Source: Gordonia jinghuaiqii (GTDB lineage: Bacteria; Actinomycetota; Actinomycetes; Mycobacteriales; Mycobacteriaceae). From it: a stretch of DNA of 64,000 bases. How positions within the stretch are numbered: the first letter of the stretch is position 1; every line of letters begins with the position of its first letter. Under the pieces are notes generated by a model, which did not search any database, was not told the origin of the DNA, and worked only from the letters and a program-made list of their open reading frames with translations. Position numbers and translations under genes: made by a program. Location of the stretch: assembly GCF_014041935.1 (NCBI RefSeq), contig NZ_CP059491.1, forward strand, positions 3,348,001 to 3,412,000. The letters run 5' to 3'. Shown in pieces: positions 5,342 through 43,657 of this stretch.

Positions 5342-5445
5342 GGCGCGATTGTAGCCGCGCGAACACGCGCCGCGGGCACACCGATCGCGGCAGATCCGCC
5401 ACGCCGGCGAGACACCGTGCGGTGGTTCCCATTAGCGTGGACGCC

Positions 5446-6336
5446 ATGCCCGAACAGCACGGGAACTGCTCGCCTGAGTGGAGCGATGCGGGTTCTCCGC
5501 TCAGGATCTCGCCACAGACGATGATCCGCCCGGCCCGCGAACTGGCCGGCATCTCGCTGCGCGAACTGGCCCGTCGTATCGGTGTCAGCGTCGGGACGAT
5601 GAGTGCGATCGAAACCGGTAAGACAGTGGCCGGGACCGAGCGGCTCGATGTCATCGCCGCCGAACTCGGCACCACGGTGCACAGGCTGTCCGAGGCCGAC
5701 CCGGTCCCTGCCGGGGACCCGACCGGCGGGCACCCGTTGCGGTCGCCCTTCGACTGGCGCGTCTATCCCGCACTCGAACTCGATCCTGTACTCGCCGCTG
5801 CCATCGCGTGTTTCGTACGCACCGGCTATCACGGCGCGACCATGCGCACGGTGGCAGCCGAGGCCGGCATCAGTGTGCCCGGCGTCTATCACCACTACGC
5901 GAACAAGCAGGCCCTGCTCGTGGCCGGTGTCGATCTCGCCCTCGCGGAATTACGTGCGCACCTTCCACCCGCGCGTGACGACGCCGCCGATCCCGTTGCG
6001 CGCCTGGGTAACCTCTGCGAGGCCCTGACCCGGTTCGCGATCGTGCGCGCCGACCTGGCCCGGATCGTCGTCCACGAGGCGAATGCCGCCACCGAGGCGC
6101 AGGCACGGGCGGCCCTCCTGGACGGGGAGGTGATGTCGTTGCTGCGCACCGAGATCGACGCCGGGGCCGCCGAGGACACATTGGACGCCGACCACCCGCA
6201 CGAGACCGCGCGGGCAATCGTGTCGCTGTGCCTCGGGGTGTCCCGACGGAACGACCCCGACACCGACACCGACACCGTCGCACGTCGATACGCCCGCTAC
6301 TCGGTGCGTCTCGCCGGTGGCGGAGAACGCCGGTAG
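5446..6336 (+). CDS. XRE-TetR fusion transcriptional regulator
   Basis: A 296-residue predicted DNA-binding protein with two different helix-turn-helix domains. Residues about 26-82 form an XRE/Cro-type domain (ISLRELARRIGVSVGTMSAI), and residues about 113-160 a TetR N-terminal domain (TVAAEAGISVPGVYHHYANK). The rest resembles a TetR ligand-binding part. The ATG at 5446 is chosen because upstream frames show no family features. The gene sits between two paralogous acyl-CoA ligase genes on the other strand, so it probably senses an acyl-CoA or related substrate and controls one or both; this is inference. A short CACCGA repeat (6261-6277) encodes DTDTDT near the C terminus. Confidence 0.82.
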   Translation: MPEQHGNCSPEWSDAGSPLRISPQTMIRPARELAGISLRELARRIGVSVGTMSAIETGKTVAGTERLDVIAAELGTTVHRLSEADPVPAGDPTGGHPLRSPFDWRVYPALELDPVLAAAIACFVRTGYHGATMRTVAAEAGISVPGVYHHYANKQALLVAGVDLALAELRAHLPPARDDAADPVARLGNLCEALTRFAIVRADLARIVVHEANAATEAQARAALLDGEVMSLLRTEIDAGAAEDTLDADHPHETARAIVSLCLGVSRRNDPDTDTDTVARRYARYSVRLAGGGERR

Positions 6337-20943: not shown

Positions 20944-21367
<424 letters not shown>

Positions 21368-39624: not shown

Positions 39625-39699
39625 GCGCGTATAGCTCAGCGGTAGAGCTCTGGTCTTACACACCAGCGGTCGTAGGTTCAAATCCTACTGCGCGCACCA
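39625..39699 (+). tRNA. tRNA-Val (anticodon TAC)
   Basis: A full cloverleaf: 7-bp acceptor (39625-39631 with 39689-39695, one G-T pair), D arm GCTC/GAGC, anticodon stem CTGGT/ACCAG with loop CTTACAC, and T arm GTAGG/CCTAC with TTCAAAT. The anticodon TAC is at 39657-39659 and reads the rare valine codon GTA. The 3' CCA is encoded (39697-39699). Confidence 0.96.
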
Positions 39700-39757: not shown

Positions 39758-40210
39758 TCAGCGACTCAACCACTCGCGGGTGTACACATCCTGCCAGCGC
39801 ACGGAGATGTTCCGGCGTGCCGCCGCGCTGGTCTCCGGCCCGAGCGTCTCGACGAGAACCTCCTCGACGACGTCGCGCACCGTGTCCGACAGCGCGACGA
39901 GGTCGTCGGAATAGCGGGCCACCAGGCCGAGGCGGATACCGTCGACCGAGTCACCGGCACCGTCGACGGCCGCGAACACCACCAGTCGGCCCACGTCCCG
40001 TCGGATTCGGATCGCGATCATCTGTTTGATGATCCGGTCACTGACCTTGGTGCGCACTCCGTCTGAGGCGAGCGCACGTGCTGGGCGTCGCACCCGGCTG
40101 AGCCCAGCGGAAATCGACGAGATCAGGCGATCGATGTCGCCCGGCGGCTCGGCCAGTTGTCGGGAGGCCTCCACAATCCAGGCGTCGGTGAGATCAGGTG
40201 CCTCAGGCAT
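39758..40210 (-). CDS. Asp23-like protein coupled to the ECF sigma factor
   Basis: A 150-residue soluble protein. Its ATG (40210) overlaps the end of the sigma factor gene by eight bases, so the two are translationally coupled. The middle part (VSDRIIKQMIAIRIRRDV, then LVVFAAVDGAGDSVDGI, DLVALSDTVRDVVEEVLVE) has the alternating beta-helix pattern of the Asp23/Gls24 fold, although the match is weak. Genes directly after an ECF sigma are often its regulator; here the partner resembles products of the divergent Asp23 operon, which suggests that it reports the state of that system. No membrane segment is seen, so it is not a classical anti-sigma. Function inferred. Confidence 0.72.
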   Translation of the reverse strand: MPEAPDLTDAWIVEASRQLAEPPGDIDRLISSISAGLSRVRRPARALASDGVRTKVSDRIIKQMIAIRIRRDVGRLVVFAAVDGAGDSVDGIRLGLVARYSDDLVALSDTVRDVVEEVLVETLGPETSAAARRNISVRWQDVYTREWLSR

Positions 40211-40847
40211 CAATCCCCCCTCCTTCCCGCCCGTCCACGTTGGGCGTGGTGGGTGTCCGTCTGCCAGGGTCCCACGGCGCGAGACGCGTGTGCAGGAACT
40301 TCCGGCTTCGTTGGAGATGGCCGCGAACCGAACCCGTGCTGATGCGCAAGACCCGGGAGGTTTCCTCGAGGGTAAGCCCCTCCACTTCCTTGAGCCACCA
40401 GGCCGCACGGGAGGTCGACGGCAGGTTGTCGAGCTCTGCACGCAGAGCGTCGATCAGCAACTGCCTTTCGACCTGTTCCGGCGGCAGCGGTCCGGCGGCC
40501 TCGATCTCGGCGAATCTTCCGTCGACGATGGGCACATCTCTTCTGCGCCGGTGGTAGTCGACAGATTTCCGATGGGCGATTGTGAACACCCAGGTTCGGA
40601 AGGTGCTCCGAAATTCGAAGTCGGGCAGCCCCTTCCAGGCGTCCAACAGCGTTTCCTGCGTGAGGTCCTCCGCTGTCTGGGTATCGCTCACCATCCGGCG
40701 CATGTATCGCAGCAGTCCCGGTGTCATCCGCCGGACGAGCACCGCGAACGCCTCGGTGTCGCCAACCGCCGCCGCGCCCGCGAGATCGTCATGACCGAGG
40801 TCAGCCAGGTCGAGCGACAGGCTGTGACCTGAATCACTCCTATTCAT
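40203..40847 (-). CDS. ECF RNA polymerase sigma factor
   Basis: A 214-residue group IV sigma factor. Region 2 shows AFAVLVRRMTPGLLRYMRRM, AEDLTQETLLDAWKGL and FRTWVFTIAHRKSVDYHRRR (promoter melting and -10 binding). Region 4 shows LDNLPSTSRAAWWLKEVEG and LTLEETSRVLRISTGSVRGHL (-35 recognition). It lacks a typical membrane anti-sigma next door. It is divergent, 116 bases apart, from the Asp23/Gls24 operon, and overlaps the Asp23-like gene downstream. Control of that operon by this factor is likely but not shown. The start ATG 40847 gives the normal family length. Confidence 0.9.
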   Translation of the reverse strand: MNRSDSGHSLSLDLADLGHDDLAGAAAVGDTEAFAVLVRRMTPGLLRYMRRMVSDTQTAEDLTQETLLDAWKGLPDFEFRSTFRTWVFTIAHRKSVDYHRRRRDVPIVDGRFAEIEAAGPLPPEQVERQLLIDALRAELDNLPSTSRAAWWLKEVEGLTLEETSRVLRISTGSVRGHLQRSRKFLHTRLAPWDPGRRTPTTPNVDGREGGGIDA

Positions 40848-40963
40848 GCGTGCAACTTCCCCTGTCCCTCACGACTGACCATACAGACGGATCGTGAATT
40901 CCATTTGCGATAGCACACCGAAGAGCGGTCCGCACCTGAGAATCACGACCGAAGGAGATCGAC

Positions 40964-41479
40964 ATGGCTGCCAGCTCCACCGCATCGGCACATGAGGACG
41001 CATCGACGAAGGACCACGCGAGCTCGGATGCCCCCGTCTCCGCCGGCGCCGACTCGACCAACCGCCACGCCCTGGCCCGCCGCGACAACGCAGGAGACCG
41101 CGGGCGCACCTCGATCGCCGACATCGTCGTCGCCAAGGTCGCCGGTATCGCCGCCCGCGAGATCGACGGAGTCCACGATCTCGGCGGCGCCACCGAGCGT
41201 GCGGTCGGCAGGGTCCGCGACGTCCTGCCGGGCACCTCGGTGAGCACCACCCAGGGCATCGAGGTCGAGGTCGGCGAACAACAGGCCGCCGTCGACGTCT
41301 CGATCGTCGCCGAGTACGGCGTGGCGATACACCAGCTCGCCGCCGCGGTCCGACGCAATGTGATCTCGGCGATCGAGCAGATGACCGGACTCGAGGTCAC
41401 CGAGGTCAACGTCACCGTGCACGACATCGCGTTCGGCGACGACGACGACCAGAACGACGCCGCTCCCCGGGTCCAGTGA
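40964..41479 (+). CDS. Asp23/Gls24 family envelope stress protein
   Basis: A 171-residue protein of the Asp23/Gls24 family. About 45 N-terminal residues are disordered and rich in Ser, Ala and Asp. The conserved domain follows: TSIADIVVAKVAGIAAREIDGVHDLG, then AVDVSIVAEYGVAIHQLAAAV, MTGLEVTEVNVTVHDIAF (segments given in part). In Gram-positive bacteria Asp23 lines the membrane via AmaP and its loss triggers a cell-envelope stress response. The ATG at 40964 has GAAGGAG upstream. First gene of an operon of six whose reading frames overlap, opposite an ECF sigma gene. Confidence 0.92.
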   Translation: MAASSTASAHEDASTKDHASSDAPVSAGADSTNRHALARRDNAGDRGRTSIADIVVAKVAGIAAREIDGVHDLGGATERAVGRVRDVLPGTSVSTTQGIEVEVGEQQAAVDVSIVAEYGVAIHQLAAAVRRNVISAIEQMTGLEVTEVNVTVHDIAFGDDDDQNDAAPRVQ

Positions 41480-41823
41480 TGACGGCGGATTTCCCTTCCG
41501 CGCGTCCCGACGGCAGCGATCCACCCGAACTCGCCGAAGCCCTGGCCGCAGCGGTACTGGCCGTCCCGGGTGTGACAGAGCTGCACGCCGGGATGTTCGG
41601 AGAGGTGGCGACCTACCTTCCCGGCCATCGCGTCGCGGGGGTCTCGCTGAGCGACCAGCACGGTGAGATCCACATCGTCGCCTCGCTGTCCTACGACCTC
41701 CAGGCAGTGGCCGCCGCAGTGCGCGACACCGCCGAGAAGATCGCCGCGCGACCCATCTCGGTGACGGTCGAAGACATCAGCACCGACTTCACGCCAGCAC
41801 CGAAAGAAGGTGGCGCACAGTGA
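41476..41823 (+). CDS. Small Asp23-like protein, second in the envelope-stress operon
   Basis: A 115-residue protein starting at GTG 41476 or ATG 41479, overlapping the previous stop. PPELAEALAAAVLAVPGVTELH, followed by GVSLSDQHGEIHIVASL and LQAVAAAVRDTAEKIA, repeats the Asp23 pattern of a strand pair after a helix, in a shorter form. No membrane segment. The 3' end overlaps the next gene by GTGA. It probably forms part of the same assembly as the larger Asp23 proteins; that is inferred from operon structure and fold pattern. It may instead be a distinct unnamed family. Confidence 0.75.
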   Translation: MMTADFPSARPDGSDPPELAEALAAAVLAVPGVTELHAGMFGEVATYLPGHRVAGVSLSDQHGEIHIVASLSYDLQAVAAAVRDTAEKIAARPISVTVEDISTDFTPAPKEGGAQ

Positions 41824-41999
41824 GTAACGCGACAATCGGAATGTTCGTGGGCCTGATTCTGGCGCTCGCGGCGATCGCCGGGGGACTTGGCGGCTTCCTG
41901 CTCGCCGTCGTCCTGGGCGCCTGCGGCCTCGTACTGGGACTCAACCGCGACGGCACCATCGATGTGGGCGCACTCCTGCGGAGCAGGGGCCGTGGCTGA
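41820..41999 (+). CDS. DUF2273-like small integral membrane protein, 59 residues
   Basis: A 59-codon frame starting at GTG 41820, which overlaps the preceding stop as GTGA, and ending at TGA 41997-41999. It encodes a hydrophobic hairpin: TIGMFVGLILALAAIAGG and FLLAVVLGACGLVLGL, then a short tail. This is the layout of DUF2273 proteins that accompany Asp23 and AmaP in Gram-positive operons, so it probably anchors Asp23-type proteins at the membrane. Easily missed because of its size, but the overlaps on both sides and the codon pattern argue strongly that it is real. Confidence 0.85.
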   Translation: MSNATIGMFVGLILALAAIAGGLGGFLLAVVLGACGLVLGLNRDGTIDVGALLRSRGRG

Positions 42000-42519
42000 G
42001 GTGACCACCGTCGCCGGAGTCACCGCGGCCACCGGCGACGGCACACCCGAACCGGCCGGGACGCTCACCATCGAAGACCGGGTCATCGAGCAGATCGCCG
42101 CGCGCGCCGCGCTCGACATTCCGGGCGTGACCCGTTATCAGGGCAACGTCGGTTCCCTCCTGGGTTCCAGCGCCGGCCGTTCGATCATCGGTTCCGATCT
42201 GCCGAGCGCCCACGTGCGGTCGTCGGGTCCGGCCGCGCGGATCTCGCTCGACCTTGCGCTCGAATGGCCGTGCCGGGTCGCCGACATCGCTCGACAGGCC
42301 CGTGACCACGTCACCGACGAAGTCGCCCGCCTCACCGGTGTCCGTCCGGTGCGGGTCGATGTCACGGTGGGTCAACTTGTGCCGGGGTCCGATGTACGTC
42401 GACGCAACAGCGGGTTCATCGACCTCCCTGCAGCACCTCGCGAGACCGCTTCCGCCAGTGCAGGTGCCAGTGCAGGTGCCGGCACCGGGACCATCCACGA
42501 GACGGAGGTGCCATCGTGA
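41992..42519 (+). CDS. Asp23/Gls24 family protein, third in the operon
   Basis: A 175-residue protein from GTG 41992 (overlapping the DUF2273-like gene by eight bases) or GTG 42001. The domain reads LTIEDRVIEQIAARAALDIPGV, then ARISLDLALEWPCRVADIARQ and LTGVRPVRVDVTVGQLVPG, a clear Asp23 pattern. The C terminus has a short ASAGASAGAG repeat (12-bp units near 42448-42480). Like its neighbours it overlaps the next gene (42516). Having several Asp23-type proteins in one operon suggests a mixed scaffold under the membrane; this is inference. Confidence 0.85.
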   Translation: MAEVTTVAGVTAATGDGTPEPAGTLTIEDRVIEQIAARAALDIPGVTRYQGNVGSLLGSSAGRSIIGSDLPSAHVRSSGPAARISLDLALEWPCRVADIARQARDHVTDEVARLTGVRPVRVDVTVGQLVPGSDVRRRNSGFIDLPAAPRETASASAGASAGAGTGTIHETEVPS

Positions 42520-43112
42520 CCCGATCTGCATCCGACGAGCAGACTGCACAGCGTCCTGCCACCACGGCCACACCGCCGTCTGACCGTGTCTTCACCCCGT
42601 CCGGGTTACCGGGGGCTGCGATCGCCGGGGCCGTCCTGGGAATCGCGATGATCGCGTTGGGTGTCACCGCGATCCGCGACATCGCGGTCCGGGCGGAGTG
42701 GCTCGACGGCCGCGAATGGTCGGTCACCGTCGCCGAGTGGATCCGGGATCTGCAGTGGCAGGGCTGGATGTGGCCGGCGGCCATCGGCCTCGTCCTGGTC
42801 GGACTGATACTGCTCTGGGTCGCCGTCAAACCTCGACAGCCGACACACCTGCGCATGACCCAGCCGGAGATGTGGACCCGTCCCGGCGACGTGGCACGCC
42901 GGTGCAGTGCTGCGGTATCCGACCTCCCCGGCGTCTATGAGGTCGACACGATCGTGACCCGCCGCAAGGTCAAGAGCACCGTCCTCGGTCGGACATCGGT
43001 CACTGAGCGTGACCTCATCACCCAGACGCTCTCCGACGTCGTCTCGGTTCTCGAGTCACCGCCGCGAGCCGTTGTACGGCTCCGCTTTCGAGATGGGAGA
43101 GCACGTCGATGA
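42516..43112 (+). CDS. DUF6286-like membrane protein of the Asp23 operon
   Basis: A 198-residue protein from GTG 42516. Two membrane helices lie near residues 30-52 (GAAIAGAVLGIAMIALGVTA) and 87-107 (WPAAIGLVLVGLILLWVAV), with a short outside loop, like AmaP. The cytoplasmic C-terminal domain (about 115-195) has AVSDLPGVYEVDTIVTRRK and DVVSVLESPPRAVVRLRF, which resembles an Asp23 half-domain. AmaP-type proteins recruit Asp23 to the membrane. Reading frames overlap on both sides by ATGA/GTGA. The family name is recalled with moderate confidence; the topology is visible. Confidence 0.78.
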   Translation: MTRSASDEQTAQRPATTATPPSDRVFTPSGLPGAAIAGAVLGIAMIALGVTAIRDIAVRAEWLDGREWSVTVAEWIRDLQWQGWMWPAAIGLVLVGLILLWVAVKPRQPTHLRMTQPEMWTRPGDVARRCSAAVSDLPGVYEVDTIVTRRKVKSTVLGRTSVTERDLITQTLSDVVSVLESPPRAVVRLRFRDGRARR

Positions 43113-43657
43113 ATCGTCTTCCCGCGTCGTTTCACCGTCTCACCGCGGCTTTGGTGGCACTGGCGCTGATCGCCGTCGGCGCCGGCGCGATCGCATGGCG
43201 CACCGGACTCGACCCCGTCGCAGACTGGATCGACAGCATCGACGAGGCGGCATTCGAGCGCAGCGCCACCGCATCGTGGTGGATCTGGGTGCTGATCGCG
43301 GCCGCCGTCGTCGCCTTCGGGTGGGGACTGCTGTTGCTGTCCACCAACATTCGTCCCCGCGCAGTCGAGGACGTCGAACTCGATGGCTCCGACGAGACAG
43401 GAACCCTCACGATCGCACCGAAACTCATCGCCGCTGCGGCCGCCGAGCAACTCGAGGGCAATCCCCTGTTCCAGAATGTGACCGCCAAGGCGATCGACGA
43501 CCGCGCCCGCAGCATCATCCGGGTCCAGGCCACCGCACGGCCCGACCGGAGCTACCAGGAGATCGCCGGACCCGTCGGTGACGCCGTGACCTCCATCCGC
43601 ACCGCGCTCGGGGATTCCGACGTCCATGTTCAGGCGTTCGTCCATCTCGAGCGATGA
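43109..43657 (+). CDS. AmaP-like membrane anchor protein of the Asp23 operon
   Basis: A 182-residue protein with the AmaP topology: helix 1 near residues 12-30 (TAALVALALIAVGAGAIAW), a short outside loop, helix 2 near 57-77 (WWIWVLIAAAVVAFGWGLLLL), then a cytoplasmic domain ending the protein (TIAPKLIAAAAAEQLEGNP, VHVQAFVHLER). It is the last gene of the operon, which ends at a 14-bp hairpin. It is similar in plan to the preceding protein, so the two may pair. Role as membrane anchor for Asp23-type proteins is inferred from family knowledge. Confidence 0.8.
   Translation: MNRLPASFHRLTAALVALALIAVGAGAIAWRTGLDPVADWIDSIDEAAFERSATASWWIWVLIAAAVVAFGWGLLLLSTNIRPRAVEDVELDGSDETGTLTIAPKLIAAAAAEQLEGNPLFQNVTAKAIDDRARSIIRVQATARPDRSYQEIAGPVGDAVTSIRTALGDSDVHVQAFVHLER

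Follow-up and report, generated by a model that had tools for sequence, protein, structure and literature searches.

Conserved pairing of an ECF sigma factor with a predicted Asp23-type anti-sigma factor, divergent from an Asp23 operon with a putative CRP site, in Gordonia and relatives

The window analysed here is a 64,000-nucleotide stretch of Gordonia jinghuaiqii DNA (assembly GCF_014041935.1, contig NZ_CP059491.1, positions 3,348,001 to 3,412,000 of the forward strand). It carries genes for an extracytoplasmic function (ECF) sigma factor and a soluble partner protein and, divergent from them, six plus-strand frames that overlap end to start. An earlier, sequence-only reading had described these eight frames with overlaps of a few bases and, from the resemblance of the partner to Asp23 proteins, had proposed that the scaffold itself may sense stress and control the sigma factor. 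We checked the eight frames in the window with Pfam and NCBIfam profile scans and a hydropathy analysis for membrane-length segments, and found all of them in place:

39758..40210, minus strand: soluble partner, 150 residues, probable anti-sigma factor (profile comparison, hydropathy)
40203..40847, minus strand: ECF sigma factor, 214 residues (Pfam Sigma70_r2 63.3 bits, r4_2 37.8 bits)
40823..40838, no strand assigned: CRP-type box TGTGACCTGAATCACT, beginning 28 bp upstream of the -35-like element
40851..40876, plus strand: promoter-like dyad TGCAAC-N15-CGACT, oriented toward the scaffold operon
40964..41479, plus strand: A1 (frame 1), Asp23 protein, 171 residues (Pfam Asp23 99.9 bits, cut-off 28)
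41479..41823, plus strand: A2 (frame 2), 114 residues, Asp23-like by profile comparison only, no Pfam Asp23 match
41820..41999, plus strand: hydrophobic protein (frame 3), 59 residues, DUF2273-like (20.9 bits, below the Pfam cut-off of 25.4)
41992..42519, plus strand: A3 (frame 4), Asp23 protein, 175 residues (Pfam Asp23 45.4 bits, cut-off 28)
42516..43112, plus strand: M1 (frame 5), 198 residues (Pfam DUF6286 36.5 bits, cut-off 35), two hydrophobic segments
43109..43657, plus strand: M2 (frame 6), 182 residues, AmaP-like (NF033218 41.3 bits, below the NCBIfam cut-off of 55), two hydrophobic segments

Pfam detected only Sigma70 regions 2 and 4 in the sigma factor, the composition of an ECF protein, and the start of the partner gene overlaps the end of the sigma gene by 8 bases. 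The three Asp23-type proteins of the sequence-only reading stand at different levels: A1 and A3 are Asp23 proteins by Pfam and the only ones matched in the single-contig 5.18-Mb genome, and A2 joins them through its profile (96.4% probability against the A1 family). The 59-residue membrane hairpin of that reading corresponds to a single hydrophobic stretch, residues 1-43, of sufficient length for a hairpin, in a frame whose position is kept in relatives; the DUF2273 assignment stays below cut-off. Both presumed AmaP-like anchors have two hydrophobic segments, M1 with a DUF6286 match and M2 with an AmaP match under the threshold. Membrane-length segments are confined to these three proteins among the eight frames. 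The partner has none by hydropathy, and the sigma factor is indeed without a membrane anti-sigma factor beside it. The partner is 95% identical to a protein from Gordonia sp. zg691; a tRNA-Val (tac) lies directly downstream of the partner gene, at 39625-39699.

A survey of the kind proposed with the sequence-only reading confirms both the gene set and its conservation. Profiles of the partner matched 38 of 59 Gordonia genomes and those of Asp23 40, with both present in 38, neither in 19 and Asp23 alone in 2 (Fisher p 1.5e-13, shared ancestry ignored), so that partner and Asp23 genes were jointly present or jointly absent in 57 of the 59. At the Gordonia loci L112-L138 the partner adjoins a sigma gene in 27/27 (L119 repeats L004). 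A family survey of 121 genomes gave 25 with a match to the partner profile; in the 27 distinct places found, sigma adjoins the partner in 26, and A1 lies within about 1.5 kb in 26. An order survey of 298 genomes gave 21 matches and 21 new places, 18 of them with sigma; L050 and L051 look like false matches because their scores are weak and no neighbours from the gene set accompany them, and L036 is one of the sigma-deleted cases. Outside the family, sigma, partner and A1 are all co-directional in several loci (L039, L041, L044-L046). A scan of named genomes added 27 loci from Mycolicibacterium, Mycobacterium and Rhodococcoides, with an intact sigma frame next to the partner in 23; the frame is interrupted by a stop in L096, and sigma is deleted in L085-L087. 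Of these 27 loci, 19 share the full operon of six genes with unchanged divergent order; at three of them the zinc-Asp23 profile introduced below gave the best score for the frame in the A3 position. In the multi-genome searches between 11 and 65 candidates were scored for each genome, and absences in them are therefore not proof. Chance or frame artefact as the source of the arrangement was rejected in view of the conserved gene order and the conserved sigma-partner-A1 set. The broken sigma frames of L096 and of L117, where it is split over two frames, may be real or sequencing errors. At L016 (1495-2250) the partner frame is internally shortened, in frame, relative to its close relative P0041.

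Neither Pfam nor NCBIfam gave a significant match for the partner, and no Asp23 (PF03780) match rose above cut-off, so that profile comparison was needed. Among relatives in the order, eight carry an H-x3-C-x2-C motif ahead of an Asp23-like half, with an upstream cysteine common to all eight. Searched against 296 genomes of the class, a profile of these zinc-type relatives found matches in 144, many of them with ordinary Asp23 proteins. In 21 class loci (L055-L075; further full-length matches, without a locus, are left out of this count) the match covers nearly the whole profile, and all 21 adjoin an ECF sigma gene. The full motif, C-x(15-45)-H-x3-C-x2-C, is present in 20 of them, L073 being without the histidine. 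A protein search with zinc-type queries yielded 603 proteins at 1e-10; in the best 120 of the 603, most of the named ones are from Streptomyces, many are already annotated as Asp23/Gls24 family, and all bear the zinc motif, a count that is partly selection, since the queries bore it themselves. The Hx3Cx2C motif occurs in none of the 67 Gordonia/Williamsia-type proteins (P0001-P0067). On the Asp23 side, 3 of 7 zinc-type proteins scanned exceeded the Pfam cut-off (best 39.7 bits), and 35 of 38, mostly from Streptomyces, matched Asp23 at E-values up to 1. The Pfam zinc finger zf-HC2 matched 3 of the 38, at best with 0.016, and was not relied on.

Comparison with known structures points to anti-sigma factors. 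A profile of the N-terminal part of the zinc-type proteins, built from 29 of 35 cut stretches, found in the PDB RsiW (7.3e-5) and 3hug_B (1.1e-4) first, followed by a eukaryotic zinc finger (3.3e-4); DdvA, another anti-sigma factor, came at 0.095. We take 3hug to be RslA. No useful PDB match came from the mixed partner profile A2 or from A1. The zinc-type profile in turn finds the window partner at 4.2e-10. Iteration blends the A1 and A3 families, and about a dozen of the 97 sequences in the partner family are zinc-type or intermediate; a clean comparison is that of the Gordonia-only partner alignment with the zinc-type alignment, which match at 93.9%. With 11 of the 97 rows (zinc-type or intermediate) excluded, the first 52 residues of the zinc-less partners matched the stretch that follows the zinc site with a probability of 74%; five controls stayed below 1%. 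Thus, the first ~50 residues of the partner apparently resemble the part of a zinc anti-sigma domain that follows the zinc site, and the remainder is Asp23-like; the Gordonia protein appears to have retained only that part, without zinc ligands and first helices. Class I anti-sigma domains (ASDIs) have four helices, the first three binding sigma4 and the fourth sigma2, and the Hx3Cx2C motif is found in about 56% of them and hence not required, according to PMC7406223. Given these helix roles, what the Gordonia partner has kept would be chiefly the part that binds sigma2. The Asp23 resemblance proposed in the sequence-only reading is therefore upheld at the profile level, and the partner also stays and co-varies with sigma. 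That it might be an unrelated protein is countered by the profile matches to the zinc-Asp23 relatives. These relatives, which the sequence-only reading had not noticed, give a structural reason for the assignment, and the prediction that the partner is an anti-sigma factor is well supported.

The region between sigma and A1 is conserved as well. An alignment of 30 Gordonia regions (29 distinct, L119 being the same place as L004) contains a TGTGA-N6-TCAC-like box, likewise absent from the sequence-only reading, followed by CGTGCA..CGACTGAC. An unbiased count of dyads in 22 mycobacterial regions returned TCAC-N12-TTCG and TTCG-N16-CGAC in 18 each, with a shuffled maximum of 7. At divergent loci of other families, GTGA..TGTC precedes A1 in 7 of 11 regions (weak, against a maximum of 6) and its counterpart GGAC..TCAC precedes sigma in 11 of 15 against 6; among co-directional loci no dyad stood out clearly (9, shuffled maximum 7). 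The dyad elements differ by clade, as TGCA..CGAC, TTCGG..CGAC and GTGA..CGTGTC. Dyad and box occur together in 24 of 30 Gordonia, 19 of 24 mycobacterial and 9 of 18 sister-genus regions, and in other families in 6 of the 8 regions, out of 12, that have the dyad: 58 of 84 regions overall. Reversed sequences had three dyads and none with a box. In nearly all 58 the first dyad element follows the start of the box at a distance of 27 or 28 bp (26 in L063, 28 or 30 in L102), the element that anchors this spacing differing between clades. At L060 a short frame, presumably CsbD-like, separates A1 from the promoter-like site.

The box matches a TGTGA-N6-TCACA-like pattern at near-constant promoter distance and may be a Crp site; the genome encodes a Crp-type helix-turn-helix protein (66.2 bits). 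In the window it falls inside the annotated sigma frame, among the opening codons, so that binding of a regulator to it could influence both directions. A search for other regulon members with TGCA-N15-17-CGACTGAC gave 3 occurrences in the genome and 2 in the backwards control, and no second target is therefore claimed. Autoregulation of sigma was considered and rejected: the dyads before mycobacterial sigma genes are the reverse complement of the operon dyad, and no sigma-direction dyad was seen in the mycobacterial and sister loci examined; L045, L055 and L056 show one each.

Building on the gene set, its linkage, the domain relationships and the conservation of dyad and box, we propose the following circuit. 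The partner would be a soluble anti-sigma factor whose N-terminal helices hold the ECF sigma factor and whose C-terminal Asp23-like domain serves as sensor. Once released, sigma would use the TGCAAC-N15-CGACT site to transcribe the divergent operon of six genes, and a CRP-type regulator binding immediately upstream would provide a second input at the operon promoter. The operon products would form a layer of Asp23 proteins beneath the membrane, anchored there by the AmaP/DUF6286 proteins; we read the operon in this way because Asp23 of Staphylococcus aureus forms filaments or oligomerises, and AmaP attaches it to the membrane (PMC6954212). That the partner is an anti-sigma factor and the operon a target of its sigma we consider probable, and the conserved promoter-like site makes the link between sigma and operon drawn by the sequence-only reading plausible. 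For the sensing step we favour, tentatively, docking of the Asp23-like domain on the Asp23 layer, by which sigma would read the state or amount of the scaffold; we would not be surprised to see this step fail.

The strongest competitor concerns that step alone: the partner would be an anti-sigma factor whose Asp23-like domain makes no contact with the scaffold and instead binds another ligand or stabilises the protein, the operon simply being a sigma target. Evolutionary distances speak to this point. Over 84 locus entries, which perhaps include a few repeated places and for which the best A1-like frame per locus, not necessarily A1, was taken, the sigma-partner distance correlation was 0.91, and 0.79 given A1, and the partner-A1 partial correlation given sigma was 0.00. 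In the 54 non-Gordonia entries the 5-95% ranges were 0.64 to 0.78 for sigma-partner given A1 and -0.02 to 0.44 for partner-A1 given sigma. The partner thus follows sigma, and its lack of co-variation with A1 once sigma is accounted for is what the absence of contact would predict; so are the sigma-partner pairs that have no six-gene set in the surrounding 6 kb or so (L093, L094, L096). Against it stand the shared superfamily of the putative sensor domain and the target proteins and the joint presence or absence of partner and Asp23 genes in 57 of 59 Gordonia genomes. We give this alternative a substantial chance, if somewhat short of an even one.

Several observations weigh against the proposed circuit as a whole. 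The first Streptomyces relative scanned scored 16.1 with Asp23 (cut-off 28) and matched DUF6286 better; the whole-length zinc-type profile had no significant PDB match, 3hug_B (0.06) and RsiW (0.48) ranking behind an unrelated chain (0.011); and the Gordonia-only partner profile matches A1 (20.5%) and A3 (35.4%) weakly, the Asp23 relation of the Gordonia partner running through its zinc-bearing relatives. The dyad was counted in the sequences that had yielded the dyad motif, for which reason the constancy of spacing outweighs the counts, and 25 of 80 sigma-bearing regions are without dyad and box, some Gordonia regions among them having variant bases at the same place. In three related Mycolicibacterium loci (L085-L087) sigma is deleted save its end and the partner is still open, with a dN/dS of 0.24-0.39, above the 0.10-0.25 of five sigma-bearing pairs; another frame, presumably of universal-stress type, occupies the place of the lost gene (about 5350-6030). 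These loci retain box and dyad, which argues either that the tie to sigma is not strict or that another pair has taken over, and two of the three strains do bear a second sigma-partner pair elsewhere (L093, L094). Finally, L023 has a partner-like frame without sigma and also without the usual N-terminal motif.

The retention of dyad and box in L085-L087 would also be expected if the operon promoter were served by a housekeeping sigma factor together with CRP and the ECF factor controlled something else. The near-constant spacing of the box fits such a promoter, as do the TATACA or TACA-like bases that closely follow the dyad in many Gordonia copies. Yet the dyad elements vary from clade to clade, which is unusual for housekeeping promoters, and within the 6 kb read, L139 and L140, the loci of the two Gordonia genomes with Asp23 alone, keep the six-gene operon without sigma, partner and box. 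The three sigma-less loci L139, L140 and L141 have neither box nor dyad, apart from one loose dyad match in coding sequence in L140, and we regard control by a housekeeping factor as unlikely. Beside the operon in L139 and L140 stand two further frames, presumably regulator-like and aldehyde-dehydrogenase-like. The idea that the partner is an extra scaffold subunit without an anti-sigma role, sigma being controlled through its own transcription, draws on the Asp23 relation of the partner and on its persistence where sigma is deleted (L085-L087) or lacking (L023), but is quite improbable in view of the overlap of partner start and sigma end, the zinc anti-sigma motif in the best 120 of 603 relatives, RsiW and 3hug_B as best PDB matches and the sigma-linked partner distances.

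If the proposed circuit holds in full, the anti-sigma factor would be a modified scaffold subunit able to join the Asp23 layer, and the scaffold would measure itself, an outcome that we hold to be doubtful. A sound layer would then recruit the anti-sigma factor one way and a damaged or depleted layer the other, the ECF sigma factor, gated by cAMP-CRP at the same promoter, would tune scaffold production to integrity and energy state, and the principle would extend to many Actinomycetes. The circuit becomes testable through the promoter-like site, which points to a likely target, and the CRP-type box, which suggests a second input. Elsewhere in the window, an RNase P RNA of class A lies at 20945-21362 (255.6 bits).

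The sequence-only reading had taken a mechanism of this sort to be undescribed. Asp23-family anti-sigma factors have been predicted before, for the groups ECF286 and ECF292, which reportedly go back to Casas-Pastor 2021. In both groups an ECF sigma factor adjoins a soluble Asp23-family protein that is predicted to be its anti-sigma factor, with Streptomyces rimosus and Mycolicibacterium cosmeticum as named representatives and confirming experimental data on the mechanism lacking according to the review PMC8999054, as far as its accessible text goes. The prediction of an anti-sigma role for such partners is thus already in print. The Gordonia system shares this arrangement, has relatives in the genera of the representatives and probably belongs to ECF286/ECF292; the zinc motif, the divergent scaffold operon and the CRP box are not mentioned in the portion of PMC8999054 that we could consult. 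Added here are the zinc-anti-sigma/Asp23 relatives and the arrangement of box plus dyad before the operon. Searches of an open-licence library listed nothing on a link between Asp23 and ECF anti-sigma factors beyond PMC8999054.

With class I anti-sigma factors such as RsiW, RslA and ChrR the system shares a partner gene that follows the sigma gene, Hx3Cx2C in the relatives and an N-terminal profile that matches RsiW and 3hug_B. It differs from them in that the Gordonia partner is without zinc ligands and apparently without the first helices, and in that its sensor part is Asp23-like and no membrane segment is present. As in the Asp23-AmaP layer of S. aureus, Asp23 proteins and AmaP-like anchors are encoded within one operon. 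That layer is under sigma-B, whereas the Gordonia operon adjoins an ECF/probable anti-sigma pair and carries a CRP-type box.

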